64,000 nt of DNA from Paramacrobiotus metropolitanus. Its lineage: Eukaryota; Tardigrada; Eutardigrada; Parachela; Macrobiotidae. The stretch is from assembly GCF_019649055.1 (NCBI RefSeq), contig NW_026570227.1, forward strand, positions 1,240,001 to 1,304,000. Reading direction: 5' to 3'. The first letter of the stretch is position 1. Each line of letters begins with the position of its first letter. The notes under the pieces were generated by a model. The model saw only the letters and a list, made by a program, of their open reading frames with translations, did no database searches and had not been told where the DNA came from. Position numbers and translations under genes: made by a program. Positions 18,110 through 62,750 of the stretch are shown here, piece after piece.

Positions 18110-18228
18110 GTCTACGACCATACCACGTAGAAAACTCCCGATCCCGTTCGATCTCGGAAGATAACCTACGTCGGGCCCGGTTAGTACTTGGATGGGTGAC
18201 CGCTTGGGAACACCGGGTGTTGTAGACT
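18110..18228 (+). rRNA. 5S ribosomal RNA, copy 1
   Basis: 119-nt sequence starting GTCTACGACCATACCACG and ending GTTGTAGACT, with the internal control region (CGGTTAGTACTTGGATGGGTGACC) of animal 5S genes. A run of T follows directly as pol III terminator. TATAAATATC lies about 25 bases upstream. The LINE insertion lies in the spacer downstream of this copy. Confidence 0.96.
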
Positions 18229-18336
18229 TTTTTGCCTTTTAACTAGACGGCTTTTTGGCTAACTGTACAGTACTTAATTTTTTTATATTTTGTTTGTTAA
18301 TAACGCTAATGTATTAATATTTAAATGGCTTGAGGA

Positions 18337-20933
18337 TTGGATGGCCTCCGACCGCAGCACATTAAGGACATGCTGAGTTGTAAAGATGCTGTCGAATCTC
18401 CGCTATGTATTGCGCTGTGCAAGTTGATAAATTTTCTTGTTGCTGGCAAGTTACCGGAGGAGTTGAGACCTGTTCTGTTCGGCGCTAACCTGATTGCTCT
18501 GTCGAAGAAAGATGGTGGTGTTCGTCCGATTGCTGTGGGAAATGTAATACGAAGACTTGCAGCCAAGATTGTCACGAAGCGTTGTGGGAAAAAAGCGAAT
18601 GAACTATTCACTCCCACACAAGTTGGATGTGGTACACGCGGCGGAGCAGAAGCAGCTGTACATGCAGTCCGAAGTTTCATTCAAGAGGAGCACGACGGCC
18701 TACGAGTTTTGTTTAAAATAGACTACAGAAATGCTTTTAACACTGTCCGTCGTGACATTATGTTACAGTGTGTCCTACAACACTTCCCGGAATACTATCC
18801 GTTCGTTTTGAGTGCATATGGAGCGCCGTCTGTCCTCTCGTGCAGCGGCAGTGATGAGGATTTGTCATCCGCCACGGGGATCCAGCAGGGCGATCCGATG
18901 GGACCACTGCTTTACTGCCTCGTCTCTCTTCTATTCTGTATAAATCTGTGTTCAAGGTTGAAGGTGTTTTTCTTGGACGACGGTGCCCTGGGAGGTACGG
19001 TGGAAGAAGTTGCCGAAGATTTGGTATCAATCATCACCGCCAGCAGCGCCGCTGGACTACAACTGAACCCCGCGAAGTGCGAAATGTTGCTCATTGGTGG
19101 AAGTGTTGAAGAACGCGAGGTGGCCAAGAACAGGCTGCACTCAATTGCTCCCGGTGCGATTGTTTTGCAGCCTGAAACGGTAACGTTTCTTGGTGCACCA
19201 TTAACTGACGAGGCGATAACTCACTCACTGCAACAGAAAATTGCTTCGCTAAAAATTTTTGCAGATCGTTTGCGATTACTGAGCGCACATCATGGATTTT
19301 ATCTTTTGCGGAACTGTCTGTCCATCCCGAAGCTCATGTACACGCTACGGTGTAGCCCCTGTTGGAAGGTACCTGAACTGTTGGACGAGTTCGATGGTCA
19401 CGTTAAAGAAGTCCTGGAAGAAATAACCAACACCGAACTGGACGGACAAGTTTATACGCAGGCTACACTCCCTGTTGCCAAAGGGGGTTTGGGTGTGCGA
19501 CGAGCGAAAGCGTTGGCTCCTTCAGCCTTTTTGGCTTCCATGTTTTCGACCCGTCAGCTAACATCACGGATCTACAATGGCGATACGGAGAAGTTAGTCA
19601 ATGCTGCATGTGAATGCTGGAAGCGAGAGTCCGCCTGTGAAGAGTTACCCCTGGATTTGGCACGCGTTCACCAGTGTGTATGGGATACAGTGATGGGTTA
19701 CTGAGTTTTTTGGACCCCTTACTTACTTTTACTTTTGCTTACTTTTGACTTACTTTACTGTTACTTTTTCGCTGCCGCAAACGCTACTTTTACTTACTGT
19801 TTACTAATTCGCCTTAAAGATTACTTACTCAGTAAGCCAAGTACTAATAGCTATAGCTTATGTGAGGAAGCAAATTTCGCGCGAAGCGCGAAGGTGACGA
19901 GCAAATTTATAGTGAAATCGTAAGAAATTCCAATAAAAATCGTATTGTCAGTAGAAATATTGCCAGTCTGAATTTTTCTCTACTTTTTACTTACTTTTAC
20001 TGTTACTTTAAAAACCTTACTTACTGTTACTGTTACTAGAGGTCCAAAACGTTACTGGTTACTGAATACTTAATATTAGGCTACTGTTTACTGAGTAACT
20101 TTCCCTTACTTACTGTCTACTCAGTAACCCATCACTGATGGGATAATGCTGTTATACAAAGGGACGTCACTGAGATATGGAGCAAAGCCGGAGGCAGTAA
20201 GCAAGACGAAGCACGGTTGAGAGCTATCAGCACGAAGTATGCCGGGGCTTGGCTTAACGCTCTTCCCGCAAAAGTGTTCGGCAATTTTTTGGACGATCAG
20301 ACTTTTCGAATTTCCGTTGGCTTGTGGCTTGGCGCTAAAATTGTCGAGTGTCATTCGTGTGCCAGATGTGGAAAAGATGTAGCAGAGAACGGATACCATG
20401 GGCTGGCCTGTAAGAAGTGCATTGGTAGAAGGGAACGACATAACGGTATTAACGATATTATCTTGCGAGCGCTATGTAATGCCGGGATTGAATCGTATCC
20501 AGAGCCTATTGGCTTTTTGCGCGAAAATGGAAAGCGTCCGGATGGAGCCACGCGCTGGAAGTGGTACCGCGGGCAGCCTTTAGTATGGGACGTGACCTGT
20601 AGAGATACGATGGCGGATTCGTATGTCGACGCGACCTCAAAGTGTGCCGGTGCGGCCGCTGAGCTGGCTTCCAAGGAGAAGATTGGGAAATACAAGTCTC
20701 TCACTGATCGATGTCATTTTGTCGCCTTTGCATGCGAGACTTTTGGCACTTGGTGTGAGACTGGCATTGTTACCTTAAAGGAGATTGGAAAGAAACTGTA
20801 TTTGAGAACGGGCGAGAGTCGCTCGACTTGTTTTTTGTTTCAACGTTTAAGTTTGGAGATTATGCGTGGTAATGCTATGAGTGTATTGTGCACAGTCCCT
20901 TCTCATGTAAATTGGGACAAATTCTTCATTTGA
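18337..20933 (+). pseudogene. LINE reverse transcriptase with C-terminal CCHC/endonuclease-like domain, split by a MITE
   Basis: First segment 18337-19704 (455 aa to an in-MITE stop) is a reverse transcriptase: KKDGGVRPIAVGNVIRRLAAK, GCGTRGGAEAAVHAVR, FKIDYRNAFN, GIQQGDPMGP and the catalytic FFLDDG (YLDDG type). The second segment continues from 20146 to the stop at 20931-20933. It has CARCG...HGLACKKC, then GRRERHN, GKRPDG and LVWDVTCRDT, which resembles the zinc finger plus restriction-like (PD-(D/E)XK) endonuclease of APE-lacking LINEs. Without the MITE and one 8-bp repeat the two segments are in the same frame. The upstream (N-terminal) part is absent, so this copy cannot be autonomous. 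The clade (R2/NeSL/CRE-like) is an inference. Confidence 0.88.
19688..20137. mobile_element. hAT-type MITE (450 bp) inside the LINE
   Basis: Perfect 19-bp terminal inverted repeats beginning CAGTGATGGGTTACTGAGT. They are flanked by a perfect 8-bp duplication ATGGGATA (19680-19687 and 20138-20145). The 8-bp duplication and CAG-type ends are hAT hallmarks. The interior is non-coding and rich in TTACTTACTTTTACT-like repeats. Confidence 0.93.
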
Positions 20934-21062
20934 ATATAATTGTTGAGCGAAGCTCGCTTTGTACATATTGAGAAATAAAATCCATATTTTAAATGGCTTT
21001 TTAATAATTGTGCCAGGTTGATATTCGGCATCACAACCGGCGCTACAAATATCTGAGCACTC

Positions 21063-21181
21063 GTCTACGACCATACCACGTAGAAAACTCCCGATCCCGT
21101 TCGATCTCGGAAGATAACCTACGTCGGGCCCGGTTAGTACTTGGATGGGTGACCGCTTGGGAACACCGGGTGTTGTAGACT
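21063..21181 (+). rRNA. 5S ribosomal RNA, copy 2
   Basis: 119 nt, identical in appearance to copy 1. First gene after the LINE insertion, followed by TTTTTT and the standard spacer. Upstream flank is the inner-array variant CTACAAATATCTGAGCACTC. Confidence 0.96.
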
Positions 21182-21347
21182 TTTTTGCCTTTTAACTAGA
21201 CGGCTTTTTGGCTAACTGTACAGTACTTAATTTTTTTATATTTTGTTTGTTAATAACGCTAATGTATTAATATTTAAATGGCTTTTTAATAATTGTGCCA
21301 GGTTGATATTCGGCATCACAACCGGCGCTACAAATATCTGAGCACTC

Positions 21348-21466
21348 GTCTACGACCATACCACGTAGAAAACTCCCCATCCCGTTCGATCTCGGAAGAT
21401 AACCTACGTCGGGCCCGGTTAGTACTTGGATGGGTGACCGCTTGGGAACACCGGGTGTTGTAGACT
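21348..21466 (+). rRNA. 5S ribosomal RNA, copy 3
   Basis: 119 nt, 285 bp downstream of copy 2. Carries one visible substitution (CTCCCCATCCC where the others read CTCCCGATCCC), so it may be a minor variant. Confidence 0.95.
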
Positions 21467-21632
21467 TTTTTGCTTTTTAACTAGACGGCTTTTTGGCTAA
21501 CTGTACAGTACTTAATTTTTTTATATTTTGTTTGTTAATAACGCTAATGTATTAATATTTAAATGGCTTTTTAATAATTGTGCCAGGTTGATATTCGGCA
21601 TCACAACCGGCGCTACAAATATCTGAGCACTC

Positions 21633-21751
21633 GTCTACGACCATACCACGTAGAAAACTCCCGATCCCGTTCGATCTCGGAAGATAACCTACGTCGGGCC
21701 CGGTTAGTACTTGGATGGGTGACCGCTTGGGAACACCGGGTGTTGTAGACT
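21633..21751 (+). rRNA. 5S ribosomal RNA, copy 4
   Basis: 119 nt, 285 bp downstream of copy 3, full internal control region and T-run terminator. Confidence 0.96.
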
Positions 21752-21917
21752 TTTTTGCCTTTTAACTAGACGGCTTTTTGGCTAACTGTACAGTACTTAA
21801 TTTTTTTATATTTTGTTTGTTAATAACGCTAATGTATTAATATTTAAATGGCTTTTTAATAATTGTGCCAGGTTGATATTCGGCATCACAACCGGCGCTA
21901 CAAATATCTGAGCACTC

Positions 21918-21996
21918 GTCTACGACCATACCACGTAGAAAACTCCCGATCCCGTTCGATCTCGGAAGATGGCCTGAACACCGGGTGTTGTAGACT
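21918..21996 (+). pseudogene. 5S rRNA pseudogene, copy 5 (40-nt internal deletion)
   Basis: Starts and ends like the other copies but is only 79 nt. After CTCGGAAGAT it jumps to GGCCTGAACACCGGG. It therefore lacks about 40 nt that contain most of the internal promoter (GGTTAGTACTTGGATGGG). It is expected to be transcriptionally dead and unable to form the 5S fold. Confidence 0.95.
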
Positions 21997-22162
21997 TTTT
22001 TGCCTTTTAACTAGACGGCTTTTTGGCTAACTGTACAGTACTTAATTTTTTTATATTTTGTTTGTTAATAACGCTAATGTATTAATATTTAAATGGCTTT
22101 TTAATAATTGTGCCAGGTTGATATTCGGCATCACAACCGGCGCTACAAATATCTGAGCACTC

Positions 22163-22281
22163 GTCTACGACCATACCACGTAGAAAACTCCCGATCCCGT
22201 TCGATCTCGGAAGATAACCTACGTCGGGCCCGGTTAGTACTTGGATGGGTGACCGCTTGGGAACACCGGGTGTTGTAGACT
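22163..22281 (+). rRNA. 5S ribosomal RNA, copy 6
   Basis: 119 nt, 245 bp after the start of deleted copy 5, as expected from the 40-nt loss. Full-length and intact. Confidence 0.96.
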
Positions 22282-22447
22282 TTTTTGCCTTTTAACTAGA
22301 CGGCTTTTTGGCTAACTGTACAGTACTTAATTTTTTTATATTTTGTTTGTTAATAACGCTAATGTATTAATATTTAAATGGCTTTTTAATAATTGTGCCA
22401 GGTTGATATTCGGCACCACACCCGGCGCTATAAATATCTAAGCATTC

Positions 22448-22566
22448 GTCTACGACCATACCACGTAGAAAACTCCCGATCCCGTTCGATCTCGGAAGAT
22501 AACCTACGTCGGGCCCGGTTAGTACTTGGATGGGTGACCGCTTGGGAACACCGGGTGTTGTAGACT
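22448..22566 (+). rRNA. 5S ribosomal RNA, copy 7
   Basis: 119 nt, last gene of the array. Its upstream flank (ACCACACCCGGCGCTATAAATATCTAAGCATTC) matches that of copy 1 and not the inner copies. After its T-run the sequence leaves the repeat. Confidence 0.96.
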
Positions 22567-30230: not shown

Positions 30231-33200
30231 ATGACGTCCCCCGCTCCGACAGCGGACGAAGCGACCCTGCAGCTGCTGCACAGCGCGGAATCCCTCTTCG
30301 CCGAGTACCACCAACCGGCCACCAGTAACCCCCGCAAAGCGGCCATCGAGATCCAGTTGAAGCAGTCCTTATCCGATCCCCGCCACTGGAAATTGTGGAT
30401 TGATTCGCTGTGCCTGAGCAGCAGTCCGTATTTGCTGCTGCACTGCCTCAATCTCCTCAACGACCTCATCACGCATTTCTGGTCCACTTGGACCACCCCC
30501 GACCAGAAGCAGTACATCAAGGTACCCTTAGAATCAATCCCAACTTTGAAAATTTCACCTAATTTTCTATCTTCTAATTAAAGTCATTTTAATATCAAGC
30601 CGGGCCTTCGCGTGCTGGACGTGATTTAACATGGAAAAAATTCGAATTTTATTTTTTTATTTTAAATTAAATCGTGATTAAAACCGGAGAAAATCGTGGA
30701 AATAAATTATAATTTAAAAAAATATGTAGATAAAATTATATTCGATCTTCGAGATTTCTTTCCCTTGCACTGGTGTTTTATTTTCCTAATTTTTGTATTT
30801 TGATGTCTTATTTCTGGTATTGTGTTTTTATTTTCCTTTTTTTTATTTTTCGTTGGTAATTTATTCTCCAGTTTTTAACTGACGATTTTATTTGCCTAAT
30901 TCTTTTCCAGTTGTAGTGGAGGATGTTTTACTTATTCGTTCTCGGATTAAAACGCACTATTTTTACGAAAGGCAGCTGCCGAAATCCTTTTAAAACATAT
31001 TACGAAAAAAATAACTATAAAGAAATAATTAAAATTTAAAAAAATAAAATAATATGGGTGGAAATGAAAGTTTTCTGAAATAATCTCGTATTAGTTGATT
31101 GAATACGAGTATTGAACATCATAATAAATTTTCAGCCGCACAAGCTTCGTTGCTTGACGAATTAATTTCAGATTATTTTATCGAATTAATTCCGGTTATT
31201 TTTAAAACAACTGAAAGTGTTCGAATTTCATTTTAAATTTTATTTATTTTAGGACCGTCTCCTGCACTATTTAACCGACCCCACGGCGCCGGCCCTGCCC
31301 GCCTTCCTGCACACCAAACTGCTAAAACTCCTGGTGGACGTGGGACGCAATGACTGGCCGCACTTCTACCCGGCCTTCTTCCAGCACGTGCAGATGATGG
31401 TGGGGGAGGCGCGGCTGCGACTGGTGGGGCTGAAGATGCTGCGGCTGGTGTGCGAGGAGTTTGTGGCGCCGCGGGAGGACGTGCGGGCCGAGCGGAAGGA
31501 AGAGCTGCACAAGCTGTTGCTGGGCAAGGTGCCGGCGGTGTGGGGCATGCTGGAGAAGGTGTTGGTCCCGGTGGCGGAGGGGTTGAGTCGCGGGGAGAAG
31601 GCGGCGGCGGGGAAGGAGGAGGTGCGCTGCGCCAGTGAGGCGCTGCAGGTAAATAACCGGCGTTTGTCTGTTTAATTTAATTCTGTCTATTTTTTTCGCT
31701 TTTTTTGTTTAGCTGTCTGCTTTCCCGTGTTCTCCAATTTTTTTCATTTTTTATTTCTGGTTATTTCACTTCGTGACTGGTGATCCTGATGATGTACTTT
31801 TTTTTCAAAGTTTACTGGTTTTTTTATTTTCCTAGTTTTTTTTATTTATAAAAATGTTTTTGTTGTACAACTTGCGCGGATTTTTTCTTAGTGTCTTTAT
31901 GTTCTGTTTCGAGTTTTTACTGGCCGCATTTTTACTGCTTTTGTGATTTTCTTTGCTTTTTTTGCTGGCGTGTTGGTTTTTTATTCTTAATAATTTTTTA
32001 CTGGAATTTTTATTCTTTAAATTCTTACTGGTATTTTTTTATTTGTATTTGTTTTGGTTTTACGGGTATTTTTATTTTCGTATTTTTTGGGTTTTTGCTA
32101 GTACTTTTATCCTTCCTCTATTAAATCCATTTCAATATTTACTGATAATTTTATTTTGTGTTCCCTTTTTTATGTTATTTGCTTCTTAAATGTTCCTGGT
32201 ATTTGTTCCGAAATACCTTTAGGAATCCAGTATTTTTCAGGTAGCAGTAAAGCTTATTATTTTGAATAAATCGTCCGTAAACAAGGTCGAACTGGTATGG
32301 GTTGATTTGCAGATTCTGAACCAACTGATAACGTGGATCCCCGCGGGAACGGCGGTCCCGGCGGCGCTGATGCAGGTGCTGTTCTTCCTGGCCAACTGTG
32401 ATCTGCAGACGGGGCAGCTGTTCGAGCTGGGCGCCGGCGGCATGGCCTGCCTGGTGGAGATGGCTGGGCGCGTCTGCGCCTCGCCGGACGTGGAGAAGAA
32501 TCTCTGGACCATCTACGAGTTCGCCTACGTCCGTCTGGAGGCCGTCAATCAGCAGCTGGAAGGTCGGTACTCCCGTTAATCCGCATTAATCATTTATCTA
32601 CACGTTTTGTTTGTCGGAAACATGTTTAATATCAGAATTATTTATAGACTGCATTTCCTAGTTTTTCCAGTCATTTTGTTCTTGCGATCATAGGACATTT
32701 TTCGTTTCATACAATAAATGGATAAATGCTTGAATAATTAAAATAGAAAAATTACAAAGAATGAACACTAAAAGATTATAAATATTTTTTTTTTATTTCA
32801 CAATATGTACAAGGCGAGCTTCGCTCAACAAATATGATCAGATGAAGAATTTGTCCCAATAACATGGGAAGGGACAGTGCACAATACACTCATAGCATTA
32901 CCACGCATAATCTCCAAACTTGAACGTCGAAACAAAAAACAAGTAGAGCGACTCTCGCCCGTTCTTAAAAACAACTTCTTACCGATCTCCTTTAAAGTAA
33001 CAATGCCGGTCTCACACCAAGTGCCAAAAGTCTCGCATGCAAAGGGAACAAAATTACAGCGATCAGTGAGCGACTTGTATTTTCCAATCTTCTCACGGCA
33101 AGCCAGTTCGGCGGCGGCGCCAGCTCACTTTGAGGTCGCGTCGATGTAAATATTCATTACTAGAAGTAAAGAATAAAAGGCAAGATGAAAAATGCTGCAG

Positions 33201-54954: not shown

Positions 54955-55580
54955 TTAGCCGCTACCAATGAAGCGGACAAAGCAGTACTGCTAGCCGCCT
55001 GCCTTGAATCGTGGTTCCGGGGCATGGCTCAACGCTCTCCCTGCACCAAGTCTCCATACATTCTTGCGTGACGATGAAGTAAGAATTGGCGTCGCATTAC
55101 GGTTCGGACTTCCTGTGGTTGAAGAGCACGACTGTGTCAATTATGCTAGCCACGTGGAAACTAACGGCCAGCACGGGTTGTCATGTTCCAGTAGCAAAGG
55201 ACGATGGTCCCGGCATCTCGAACTGAACAACATTGCTAAACGCAGCTGGGAAACGGCAGGCTTCCCCTGTCAGAATGAGCCATCGGGATTGTCAGACAAG
55301 GATAACAAGCGACCGGACGGCATGACACTGATACCCGTGCGTGACGGAAAGGCGGTAGTGTGGGAAGCCACCTGCTGGGACACCGTGGCTACCTCGCACG
55401 TAAAAGCCAGCTCAAAGAAGTCAGGTAACGTGGCACGGCTGGCGGAAGACTTCAAGCGCGGGAAGTACGGATTTTTGGAGGATATGGGGTACCTGTTCTA
55501 CACCCTCGCAGTCGAAACTCTTGGAACTTTTGGTTCGAAATTTGCTGAGATGATACGTTTTGTCGGGAGGAAGATTCGCG
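54955..55580 (+). pseudogene. LINE endonuclease-domain fragment, first half
   Basis: From about 54960 the frame reads DKAVLLAACLESW. After a +1 shift near 55012 it reads SGAWLNALPAPSLHTFLRDDEVRIGVALRFGLPVVEEHDC, and then HGLSCSSSKGRWSRHLELNNI, NKRPDG and AVVWEATCWDT. This is the same zinc-finger/endonuclease domain as in 20217-20933 but clearly diverged. The first CxxC of the finger is degraded (CVNYASH). The frame continues into the inserted element and stops there. The homologous continuation is found at 57572-57732. Confidence 0.85.
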
Positions 55581-57571
55581 AGAATGTCCAAGTTAGGACA
55601 TTAGTGGTTCACTGGTTCTGAACCTAGAGAACCACCATAGAACCAAGAAGGCGACATGTAAACGCTTACTTGCCGACACATACTCACATAGTCTCGCTAT
55701 TCATTCTATCCTGCAAACCAGGTGAACCTACAGAACCACACAGAACCACCATAGAACCACTATAGAACCACAGTGAACCAAGTCCACTGACAGTGGTTGA
55801 CACGCTGCCGCATTACCCCTATCCTGCTTTAAACCGGTGAACCTATAGAACCACACAGAACCACCATAGAACCACTATAGAACCACAAGTGAACCAAGTC
55901 CACTGACAATGGTTGACACGCTGCCGCATTACCCCTATCCTGCTTTAAACCGGTGAACCTATAGAACCACACAGAACCACCATAGAACCACTATAGAACC
56001 ACAAGTGAACCAAGTCCACTGACAATTGCTGACACGTTGCCGCATTACCCCTATCCTGCTTTAAACCGGTGAACCTATAGAACCACACAGAACCACCATA
56101 GAACCACTATAGAACCACAAGTGAACCAAGTCCACTGACAATGGTTGCCACGCTGCCGCATTACCCCTATCCTGCTTTAAACCGGTGAACCTATAGAACC
56201 ACACAGAACCACCATAGAACCACTATAGAACCACAAGTGAACCAAGTCCACTGACAATTGCTGACACGCTGCCGCATTACCCCTATCCTGCTTTAAACCG
56301 GTGAACCTATAGAACCACACAGAACCACCATAGAACCACTATAGAACCACAAGTGAACTAAGTCCACTGACAATGGTTGACACGCTGCCGCATTACCCCT
56401 ATCCTGCTTTAAACCGGTGAACCTATAGAACCACACAGAACCACCATAGAACCACTATAGAACCACAAGTGAACCAAGTCCACTGACAGTGGTTGACACG
56501 CTGCCGCATTACCCCTATCCTGCTTTAAACCGGTGAACCTATAGAACCACACAGAACCACCATAGAACCACTATAGAACCACAAGTGAACCAAGTCCACT
56601 GACAGTGGTTGACACGCTGCCGCATTACCCCTATCCTGCTTTAAACCGGTGAACCTATAGAACCACACAGAACCACCATAGAACCACTATAGAACCACAA
56701 GTGAACCAAGTCCACTGACAATGGTTGACACGCTGCCGCATTACCCCTATCCTGCTTTAAACCGGTGAACCTACAGAACCACACAGAACCACCATAGAAC
56801 CACTATAGAACCACAAGTGAACCAAGTCCACTGACAGTGGTTGACACGCTGCCGCATTACCCCTATCCTGCTTTAAACCGGTGAACCTATAGAACCACAC
56901 AGAACCACCATAGAACCACTATAGAACCACAAGTGAACCAAGTCCACTGACAGTGGTTGACACGCTGCCGCATTACCCCTATCCTGCTTTAAACCGGTGA
57001 ACCTATAGAACCACACAGAACCACCATAGAACCACTATAGAACCACAAGTGAACCAAGTCCACTGACAGTGGTTGACACGCTGCCGCATTACCCCTATCC
57101 TGCTTTAAACCGGTGAACCTACAGAACCACACAGAACCACCATAGAACCACTATAGAACCACAAGTGAACCAAGTCCACTGACAATGGTTGACACGCTGC
57201 CGCATTACCCCTATCCTGCTTTAAACCGGTGAACCTACAGAACCACACAGAACCACCATAGAACCACTATAGAACCACAAGTGAACCAAGTCCACTGACA
57301 ATGGTTGACACGCTGCCGCATTACCCCTCTCCTGCTTTAAACCGGTGAACCTATAGAACCACACAGAACCACCATAGAACCACTATAGAACCACAAGTGA
57401 ACCAAGTCCACTGACAATTGCTGACACGCTGCCGCATTACCCCTATCCTGCTTTAAACCGGTGAACCCATAGAACCACACAGAACCACCATAGAACCACT
57501 ATAGAACCACTCGTGTCCTGGTCTATAGGTTCATTCCCATAGAACCACTAATGTCCTAACTTGGACATTCT
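55581..57571. mobile_element. TIR element carrying a 116-bp minisatellite, inserted in the LINE
   Basis: 1991 bp with perfect 30-bp terminal inverted repeats: 55581-55610 begins AGAATGTCCAAGTTAGGACA and 57542-57571 is its complement. LINE coding sequence stops exactly at the left end (...GRKIR) and resumes exactly at the right end (GDLTGESRS) in frame, so the ends are well placed. No clear target-site duplication is seen. The interior is almost entirely tandem repeat and I find no transposase. Confidence 0.88.
55715..57510 (+). repeat. 116-bp minisatellite, about 16 units
   Basis: The marker AAACCGGTGAAC recurs every 116 bp from 55831 to 57455 (15 times), with one earlier degenerate unit at about 55715. 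Units are nearly identical, differing at a few positions (TGACAATGGTTGAC/TGACAGTGGTTGAC/TGACAATTGCTGAC). Each unit itself contains sub-repeats of AGAACCACNATAGAACCAC. Confidence 0.95.
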
Positions 57572-57732
57572 ATGGCGATCTGACCGGGGAATCTCGATCT
57601 ACGGCTTTCCTTAGACAACGTTTTAGTCTCGCTGTTGTTAAAGGAAATGCGGCTGCTGTCTTGGGTACATTAAACGCGCGACCGAAAGTTGGATGTGACA
57701 GTAATGACTTTGGTTGTTTTTTCAATGTGTAA
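57572..57732 (+). pseudogene. LINE endonuclease-domain fragment, second half
   Basis: Continues the fragment at 54955-55580 beyond the inserted element: GDLTGESRSTAFLRQRFSLAVVKGNAAAVLGTL, ending at a TAA (57730-57732). Same C-terminal motif as the other LINE copies in the window. Confidence 0.85.
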
Positions 57733-59008: not shown

Positions 59009-59462
59009 ATTTACCTTTTGATTAGTGTCGGACGATCTATGCAACAGGTATACTTTTCTGTGCAGTGTTGCAGTGCCTCACGCTATACTATACAAATGTA
59101 CTTTTACTCTTATGCTTTTATAATTTTCTTGTTTGTACAGTATTTGACTATAACTTTAAATATGATTTCCATTACAGTTTCCGTTGTGTTGTAGTTAGTG
59201 CTAGTGCGTATGAGGCTTCCCTCAATTCGAATCCAATATTTACAGGGTACAGCGCTAGCTAGTGTGAGCGTTTGAACGGAAGCTTCTTCAGCAGCATTAG
59301 GTATCACTCCTTTATTTAAAAAAAACGATTTAGGCCGACCCCACTTAATCATCTTTGCTGGAAAATGTGTTGTTTTAGTCATCCGACGTTGCCCATATGG
59401 TGTCAGTCCATGTTTGGAAAGGAATGGTTCAGCGTTTGACCTCACAACAAATTGCTCTCCAT
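59009..59462. other. Unassigned region before second TIR element
   Basis: No gene, RNA or repeat supported. A minus-strand open frame over 59110-59496 runs into the neighbouring element and has no domain. Confidence 0.4.
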
Positions 59463-61393
59463 AGAACGACCAAGTTAGGACATTAAGTGGTTCCATAGGA
59501 ATGAACCAATAGACCAGGACAGGAGTGGTTCACCAGGTTCTGAACCAATGGAACCAAGTGAACTTGAGGGACCACGATGGAACCACCACGGAACCACAAG
59601 TGAACAAAGTGCGCACCCTCATGCCGAGCCCTATCACACTACCTCTGTACCCAGTTAACCAATCGAACCAATGCAACCACATGGAACCACAATGGAACCA
59701 CTACCCGTAGTGAACCAAGCGTGCTCTCGCATGCCTACACGCTGTCACACTACCTCTGTACTCCCTGAACCTAACTTGCTGGCCGAAATTTTGCTAAAAC
59801 TCTTTCTTCGATCGACAGCTCACTTGTCAGTCAACAAAATATCGGTAATCGACAAATCGCTGACCGACACATTGCAGAGGACACAATCTTGCTGATCGAC
59901 AGTTTGCTTACCAGTTGAACATAACGAACTTTGCAAATCTCATTTCAAACAGAGAAGGAAGTCAACCCAATGCAAACAGTTTTCTTAGGTATTTTTTGGT
60001 ATCTAAGGTTTCTTAGGTTCTTTAGGGTTCTTAGGTTTTTTAGGTTTCTCAGGTTTCTTAGGTTTCTTAGGTTTCTTAGGTTTTTCAGGTTTCTCAGGTT
60101 TCTTAGGTTTCTTAGGTTTCTTAGCTTCTTAGCTTTCTTAGGTTCAACTTCGGCTGAACGCTGAGGAATCAGCATAGAAACAGTCGGCTTTAGACACGAT
60201 TAACTACGTGAAGATAAATCACAACAATTGCATAAACACTTGTTTACCAATGAACGCAACTGTACACGTACGTGACTTTACGTCACATAGCACTCCCTTA
60301 TTGAGTTTGAGGCACTGCGAAAACCGAAACACTGCATCGCTTCGCAAAACAAAACAACAGAAAAACCATAGCAAATCGCGAGCAAAAATCAAAACAGACG
60401 TTATGGCACGGCAAGGTTACGGTCACGCATTCCGCTTGTATGGTCCCGGTACGAACGCTTTTGATCACGGTTTGGTCTGAATCCTCCACGATAGTACACT
60501 GCTAAAGAATTTGGGAAGGCGGAAACTGCTCCGTTGACCCCATTTCCAGTGAACGAACCATGAGAGGTGACGAGGCGTTGCACAGTTGGAAATCAATACC
60601 AATGGATACCGACATTTTCTATAGCGCACTTAACATGATGGCTTGTGGCAAACTGCGAAACAGCACAGTTTTCGATTTAACACGATCAGTAAATTTGGCT
60701 ACTGTAGCCGCTAGATGAAGTGGCTCCACTTTTAGATCCGGCCGCTGCCTGCCTCTGGCCGGGCACTGAACACGAGCCTTCCTCCCACCGGGAGACGCAC
60801 ACTTTGCTTTTCGATATTAGTACTGTACTGTTGCCTGCCCCTGCCAGGGGCAACCCAAAAACCACAACAAACCAGGTTTATAAATTGAAAACTATCAGAG
60901 CTCTGACATTATGCTCTAACAATAATTATTGTCGTTGCTAAAAATAAGAAAACTCGGTAAAACATGTAGAACGTCAGCATCAGAGTCAAAATTGTTTGAA
61001 ATCAAAAACAAGTCTGCACGGAGCAATGTGTGTATATTGGGCTTGCATTTTCCCGTATACCAGACTCTGTGGAGCCACTTCATCTAGCGGCTACAGTACG
61101 TTCAGCCCGACCTTCACCCACGCATTGTGGCCAGCAGGGAGTCTTAATTTGCAGCACGCAATACAGTTCCATGCAGTAAACGGCAGAGGTGGTGTGACAG
61201 TGTGACGGCATGTGAGAGCGCTCTTGGTTCACTCGTGATTCCATTGTGGTTCCATGTGGTTCCATTGGTTCAGGGAATACAGAGGTAGTGTGACAGCGTG
61301 TAGCATGCGAAAGCACGCTTGGTTCACTAGTGGTTCCATGGTGGTTCCATGTGGTTCACAACCAATCCACTAATGTCCTAACTTGGACATTCT
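59463..61393. mobile_element. Second member of the TIR element family (1.93 kb)
   Basis: The left end AGAACGACCAAGTTAGGACATTAAGTGGTTCC and the right end CCACTAATGTCCTAACTTGGACATTCT match the termini of the element at 55581-57571. Further inward TAGACCAGGACA.GAGTGGTTC is also shared. The left terminus is mutated. Near both ends are diverged AGAACCAC/GTGGTTCC-type repeats and CTGTCACACTACCTCTGTA. There is no 116-bp array here. The middle holds the 9-bp repeat and short unassigned frames. No transposase or duplication found. Confidence 0.75.
60000..60145 (+). repeat. 9-bp tandem repeat (TTCTTAGGT)n
   Basis: About 14 units with minor variants (TTCTCAGGT, TTTTTAGGT). Because 9 is a multiple of three it leaves open frames on both strands (FLRFLRFLR and NLRNLRNLR). 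These are a product of the repeat and not evidence of a gene. Confidence 0.9.
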
Positions 61394-62144
61394 CTCACAA
61401 ATTGTCTTTGTGATTACGCAGCTGAATTGCTTGTGCCTAGTTTTAGTTTCGCGAACCTACAGTAGAACGCATCTCTTCAAATGAACCCGGCTGTGGCTAA
61501 CAAGTGTTTTTCGGCATCTTGGATTTTACCAGTAAACCCAGCCGCACGCTCGCTTTTGTTGCTGCCGTTTCCTTGTATACTATCGCGTGCTTTCCAAAAT
61601 ACTGGAGGTATCACTGAGAATGATCATATAAACTTCCTGCAGAAATGAGCCAATCCCCGGCCAGACCAGTAGCGGTAGCGTCAATGATGCGATTTTTTTA
61701 GCGCTATGGTTATTTGCGGTAGGTACACAAGCAGTACAGTCATAAGTTTCGTATAAAGTAAAAATTTGTACTGAATACACAGCGATGCAATTATACTCGT
61801 AAATCCCGGCTCTTCAGAAGGCGATTGTTTATCCTGTTTTGATCAGACTCCTAGGTTAACCCTGAAAAATACGGTGACCTTATACCGTACTGTACAGCGG
61901 CATCGGATCGCTGCCGATTATGCGGATTACAAATTTAATTTCCGCAACGGTACTGTGTCGGTTAGCATGTGCTAACCGACACAGTACCGCTGCGGAAATT
62001 AAATGTGCACACAAAAGCAGATCAGCTAGTCGGTTTGTATCGTACGCTGCACAGTACGGTGTACGGTTCTATGAATACTTACAGTTTTTTTTCAGATTGG
62101 ATTATTCACCATAACATAGGTTAAACGCAAAATTGCACAGTTCA
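61394..62144. other. Unassigned region with a 34-bp-arm hairpin
   Basis: No gene recognised. At 61933-62004 two 34-nt arms with one mismatch flank a 4-nt loop (ATTTAATTTCCGCA.CGGTACTG ... GTTAGC|ATGT|GCTAAC). This could be a pre-miRNA-like hairpin, a palindromic MITE remnant or a recent inverted duplication. Confidence 0.6.
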
Positions 62145-62369
62145 TCATTTCAACACGTAATACACTTCATCCAGTTTCTTACCGATACAAAACGTTTCCT
62201 GAACACACGCGGCATTTTCTCGCATTAAAGCAACACTGATTCTCTGCTTCAGAAACTGAGTGGACCGTTTCTCCTGTATCCGCTCAGAAAGCATCTTAGT
62301 GATCTTACCGAGCGTAGACATCTTACATTTCGATTCACTACTCCACACGCCCATTGTTACAAAAACCAA
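62145..62369 (-). pseudogene. LINE C-terminal fragment
   Basis: Minus-strand frame LGKITKMLSERIQEKRSTQFLKQRISVALMRENAACV aligns with the C-terminal motif of the LINE protein (IGKK...TGESRSTCFLFQRLSLEIMRGNAMSV at 20790-20880). Only this end is present, and it is more diverged than the other copies. Confidence 0.65.
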
Positions 62370-62750
62370 AGCAGAGCAATTGAAAGCAGCTTACAGTTTA
62401 TAATACCGCGATAGGCGACTGCAGAATGCGTTACAAGTATAAATCCTGATTACAGTATGGCTTATACCACATCCGGTCATGGCAAGACAAAGCAAAACCT
62501 ACAACTACCTTTCGACAGTAATATTATGGAATCGCTACAGCGATCGTTGTTGCAGGTACTGGATTATGTAATAATTCTGGTAGTTACGACAAGGGATCGA
62601 AAGATGTTTGATAGTTACGACATATGTAGGTACATCGAGCGGCACGCAGCAACAACTCGGAAGAATAATCTCTTGATGATATACAGTACATTTAAGCGCT
62701 TCCTTGTGCTTTATAAACAAAAGTACAAAACTGATATCTCTGCGTAATTA

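Follow-up and report, generated by a model that had tools for sequence, protein, structure and literature searches.

The region 55582–57574 (plus strand) of the window, the 64,000-nucleotide stretch of Paramacrobiotus metropolitanus DNA that was analysed, is occupied by a 1993 bp element, here termed E1, whose limits were set from its inverted arms and a target-site scan. E1 is a real element, and the borders first proposed for it in an earlier note need a small correction. That note had described a non-autonomous element with terminal inverted repeats (TIRs), composed mostly of minisatellite and lodged within a LINE, and this description stands. We consider it probable that E1 is a non-autonomous transposon of MITE or foldback-like character, in which the element's own subterminal repeats expanded in one direction after its middle had been lost. 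As judged from sequence comparison, it is most likely that the minisatellite is a subterminal repeat belonging to the family itself, and not a captured satellite.

The inverted ends of E1 are perfect over 30 bp (55581–55610 and 57542–57571), as had been claimed, and are contained within 50-nt arms that are 88% complementary. The 'B' terminus with its TIR (55582–55610, plus strand) starts with GAATGTCC..., and the 'A' end domain with its TIR (57511–57574) starts with CATAGAATGTCC... on the minus strand; read along the plus strand, the element runs from GAATG... to ...CTATG. A palindrome with a 7-bp stem, present in the B terminus, folds at both ends of E1, where 2 and 0 of 200 shuffles, respectively, fold equally well, in agreement with the earlier remark that the TIR is close to a palindrome.

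An inverted relative, E2 (59460–61392, minus strand; 1933 bp with a nested TIR element), lies 1.9 kb from E1 in the opposite orientation. The left end of E2 is 89.5% identical to the A end of E1 over 76 columns, and its right end is 85% identical to the B end over 66 columns. The unequal termini are common to both copies: the terminus sequences of the two ends of the family are GAATGTCCAAGTTAGGACATTA and CATAGAATGTCCAAGTTAGGACATTA, with the A end starting CATAGAACGACC... in E2. With up to 3 mismatches allowed, the 25-nt TIR core is found three times in the window and never in 100 shuffles, and so is not a chance match. A shorter core of 15 nt is found without mismatch at all four ends of E1 and E2, and with 3 mismatches at position 32909. 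As 5 of 100 shuffles reach this total of five (1.93 expected), only the four exact matches are taken as real.

The palindrome folds in three of the four ends of E1 and E2, the A end of E2 having substitutions there and no fold. Terminal hairpins of this sort could be used by a single-strand element of the HUH or Replitron-like type, for which target-site duplications (TSDs) of 2–8 bp are also described in the portion of PMC10741241 drawn on here. The same portion describes Replitrons as having no TIRs and direct terminal repeats of 5–11 bp, whereas the TIRs of E1 are perfect over 30 bp, and we regard a single-strand mechanism as very improbable.

The earlier note saw no clear duplication at the insertion site and placed the interruption exactly at the TIR borders; neither point survived closer inspection. 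A border-shift scan places GCGA on either side of 55582–57574 (55578–55581 and 57575–57578), with the true left border 1 nt inward and the right border 3 nt outward of the TIR limits. When the borders of E1 and E2 were scanned jointly over a 25 × 25 grid of shifts, the single best solution was a pair of 4-bp duplications, GCGA for E1 and TCTC for E2 (59456–59459 and 61393–61396); three other solutions on this grid gave 3/3 each. Among 1000 random pairs of pseudo-elements drawn from the window, a joint 4/4 result arose in 6 with shifts of up to 6 and in 16 with shifts of up to 12. The family termini and the length of the duplication rest on two copies, and the TCTC of E2 is to be read with the caveat that it sits in CT-rich DNA. 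Just outside it, an 8-bp direct repeat ACAAATTG is present at 59447–59454 and 61397–61404. Taking this repeat as the E2 duplication would lengthen the A end by 5 nt and the B end by 4 nt; with borders of the same type on E1, the flanks share a single C and bases needed by the LINE frame are lost, and this candidate was rejected.

The interrupted LINE offers a view of the empty site. The left part of its C-terminal region (55004–55581, plus strand) is 41% identical (77/187) to a LINE open reading frame (ORF) at 20217–20933, and the last part (TGESRSTAFLRQR..., 57579–57732, plus strand) matches the same ORF at 19 of 30 positions. By its motifs the interrupted LINE is probably of the restriction-like-endonuclease type; a Pfam scan of this C-terminal region found no family. 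Removal of E1 together with one GCGA gives VGRKIRDLTGESRS, which restores the frame as VGRKI-RDL-TGESRS. Three residues then separate GRKI from TGES, a spacing equal to that in the copy at 20217–20933, on which the alignment of the left piece ends at residue 194 and that of the right piece starts at residue 198. Excision of 55582–57574 with both GCGA copies retained puts the two halves into different frames. The frame and exact spacing obtained with one GCGA removed thus provide further support for the 4-bp duplication. As a counterpoint, the TSD-free borders 55581–57571 also join the LINE in frame, as had been reported, but the product VGRKIRDGDLTGESRS carries two extra codons.

Seven pattern matches to the interrupted LINE protein were returned from viral contigs, and none was confirmed. 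A minus-strand remnant of a LINE C-terminus is present at 62145–62390 (26/62 identity to the ORF at 20217–20933), and a near-perfect snap-back palindrome, with 38-nt arms that are 95% complementary and separated by 2 nt, is found at 61930–62007. Elsewhere in the window, a LINE with a reverse transcriptase domain (RVT_1) occupies 18332–20983 within an array of 5S rRNA genes. It lies in the spacer that follows the 5S gene at 18110–18228, is bordered on both sides by about 15 bp of 5S spacer (unit positions 208–222), and may target 5S arrays. Five further 5S rRNA genes follow at 21063–22566, with start-to-start spacings of 285, 285, 530 and 285 bp.

Almost the whole interior of E1 is a tandem array on the plus strand. 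A tandem-repeat scan delimits it at 55715–57510 (116-bp period, 15.5 copies, 98% matches), and inspection of individual units resolves 15 complete units (55723–57461; one of 115 bp and fourteen of 116 bp), which differ from one another at 0–6 positions. They are preceded by a decayed edge unit of 104 bp (55619–55722) that adjoins the B end and differs from every one of the 15 core units at 48–51 alignment columns, and are followed by a truncated last unit (57462–57510) that passes into the A-end domain close to a GAACCAC motif. The spacing along the array is 104, 115 and then 14 × 116 bp. A homogeneous core with a decayed edge is the pattern expected of unequal exchange or slippage. For 14 units, the mean difference between units was 2.00 at lag 1, 1.75 at lag 2 and 2.57 at lag 7; as it barely depends on distance, there is no clear signal of neighbour duplication, which counts against simple growth from neighbour to neighbour.

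Each unit carries five copies of GAACCA, at offsets 10, 20, 31, 42 and 53, and these steps of 10–11 bp take up about half of the unit. The extended motif GAACCAC also stands at the TIR's inner margin. In E1 the hexamer occurs 81 times on the plus strand and twice on the minus strand, compared with 10 and 10 occurrences in E2 and 9 and 12 in the remaining 60 kb; the total for E1 (83) is about fourfold that for E2 (20).

E2 contains related units in a different arrangement, with two subterminal units pointing inward from each end (A-arm, 59541–59772, plus strand; B-arm, 61175–61365, minus strand). The four are 76–89% alike among themselves and 65–71% identical to the E1 unit, a level that counts against an account based on shared origin. 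Each outscores all 300 shuffles when aligned with the E1 unit, with local scores of 50–56 against null maxima of 26–30, and the decayed edge unit of E1 likewise beats 300 of 300 shuffles. Eleven tiles of the E2 interior (59790–61054) score 10–20 on either strand, which is the null level. The middle of E2 is marked by 9-bp low-complexity repeats (TTTCTTAGG), and a separate element with perfect 30-bp TIRs (TACTGTAGCCGCTAGATGAAGTGGCTCCAC) is nested at 60700–61098; at shifted borders it shows a few candidate duplications of 4–5 bp, none of them clear.

These comparisons bear on the possibility that a TIR element captured an unrelated, pre-existing satellite whose copy number then changed inside it, as has been proposed for miDNA4 in Xenopus in the part of the review PMC12628747 used here. 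Such an event would sit well with the high homogeneity of the E1 array and with its single direction, unlike the inward-pointing arms of E2. However, the shuffle test shows the E1 unit to be homologous to each of the four subterminal units of E2, the decayed unit on the B side also outscores all 300 shuffles, and the GAACCAC motif of the unit is present in the TIR itself. The homology of the four E2 units in particular makes capture the less likely origin, and we judge it improbable.

Expansion of the family's own end repeats, which we favour, can be set out as a series of steps. Originally, each end of the family would have carried a short pair of inward-pointing subterminal repeats, as in E2, whose form we take as the probable ancestral one. 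E1 would have entered the LINE gene when a transposase supplied in trans pasted it into a staggered 4-bp cut at GCGA; the mover is most likely a DDE-type transposase of an unseen autonomous partner, which would cut and paste the elements with a stagger of 4 bp. The lineage of E1 would then have lost its middle and one of its arms through a join at shared GAACCAC, so that the units remaining between the TIRs all had the same orientation. We infer this deletion, and its direction, from the truncation of the last unit at GAACCAC and from the comparison of junctions, in which GGTGAACCACTCCTGTCC of E2 corresponds to TATAGAACCACTCGTGTCC of E1. Unequal exchange or replication slippage may then have raised the number of units to 15 near-identical copies. 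The units themselves probably started as putative accessory transposase-binding sites or enhancers, an idea suggested by the recurrence, at steps of 10–11 bp, of the GAACCAC that marks the TIR's inner margin.

With regard to class, E1 and E2 combine the features of a TIR transposon that encodes no transposase: perfect 30-bp TIRs in E1, a duplication of fixed length (4 bp in both copies, which share termini; n = 2), and little room for coding sequence, E1 being almost entirely repeat units. All 28 ORFs of at least 50 amino acids that overlap E2 are without a Pfam family above cutoff; weak sub-cutoff hits among them (E 0.0041 at best, within low-complexity sequence) were disregarded. Pfam revealed no transposase or autonomous partner among these 28 and 12 selected ORFs of the window outside E2. 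The only families above cutoff were RVT_1 and ArsA_ATPase, from a set of 18 ORFs (the 12 and 6 of the 28); the other 22 of the 28 gave none. The window also contains an ASNA1/GET3 gene fragment, which fits a eukaryotic source.

Target-site duplications of 4 bp for Sola and 4–6 bp for Ginger are given in the section of PMC10741241 consulted. The 4-bp duplication is compatible with Sola, which has a DDD transposase, and no transposase was seen in the ORFs scanned; the TG...CA termini ascribed to Ginger in that section differ from the ends of E1 and E2. Helitrons, as characterised in the extract of PMC4067079 available to us, have 5' TC and 3' CTRR ends and insert between A and T without duplication, whereas E1 has GAATG... 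and ...CTATG ends and a 4-bp duplication. A rolling-circle element of Helentron or HINE-like character whose centre is a tandem array, of the DINE-1 type, would account for palindromes near the ends and for tandem repeats, features that the same extract also gives for that group, the repeats in some copies. It also describes insertion into T-rich sites without target-site modification, but E1 and E2 are flanked by duplicated GCGA and TCTC, respectively, and the E1 site is not T-rich. The odds are accordingly strongly against a rolling-circle origin.

Together, E1 and E2 represent a two-copy case, within one window, of how a minisatellite can arise from the end repeats of a transposon, with E2 displaying the inward-pointing paired form and E1 the expanded one-way form. 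If the proposed binding function is true, the birth of a satellite would be tied to selection for transposase recognition. A bolder reading, which we hold to be unlikely, is that E1 is an array of its own putative transposase-recognition sites that outcompetes its relatives for transposase or serves as a sink for it, the satellite being a by-product of this arms race, and that the family perhaps belongs to an undescribed superfamily; the latter idea is prompted by the unequal termini, the palindrome inside the TIR and the 4-bp duplication.

A search of one library of papers with three TIR strings found no description of the E1/E2 family, which may be catalogued in Repbase or Dfam. Neither the 18-nt core of the TIR nor that of the unit had a match in viral contigs. 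In genome contigs the TIR core gave two matches, both in Brasilonema, for which about 7 chance matches are estimated (257 billion bases, equal base use), and these were discounted.

Non-autonomous elements that hold tandem repeats in their interior form a well-documented kind. The account of Tetris, a foldback element of Drosophila virilis, in the part of PMC4079207 used here is of a TIR element with no apparent coding capacity, whose autonomous partner was not found. Its TIR-220 tandem repeats have a stretch of 37 bp in common with the end domain of the element itself; changes in their copy number are ascribed to unequal crossing-over, and they have grown into satellite-like arrays. Its authors suggest that the repeats first helped transposition and later yielded the satellite. 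Compared by description, Tetris differs in having TIRs of up to 1,735 bp that hold the repeats, whereas E1 has 30-bp TIRs and one one-way array. Galileo, of the P superfamily in Drosophila, likewise has tandem repeats near its ends, and those in its TIRs carry secondary transposase-binding sites (PMC3688188, in the part considered); by analogy, these sites are a model for the function that the E1 units may have had. Again by description, Galileo differs in its long TIRs and known type of transposase.

Satellite-linked, non-autonomous elements further include pearl of bivalves and a MITE of Xenopus tropicalis, miDNA4, which contains a single satellite monomer or a variable number of them; in a comparison by description miDNA4 differs from E1 in being listed as Tc1/mariner and in having a repeat thought to be captured (PMC9659126 and PMC12628747, in the passages used). 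The same passages give the central repeats of DINE elements as another documented case of internal tandem repeats, and mechanisms for oyster elements of such kind are reviewed in PMC8268682, of which a part was used. In the excerpt of PMC4596501 cited here, the BrickBuilt MITE of Porphyromonas gingivalis similarly places a minisatellite between small inverted-repeat ends, but is bacterial and has a 23-nt unit. The CMITEs of Acropora corals, as presented in an excerpt of PMC2872659, form tandem arrays ascribed to replication slippage; they differ in that whole MITEs of about 100 bp are in tandem, with TTAA duplications and a piggyBac-like affiliation. To this known kind, represented by Tetris, Galileo, pearl and miDNA4, E1 and E2 add a new family.
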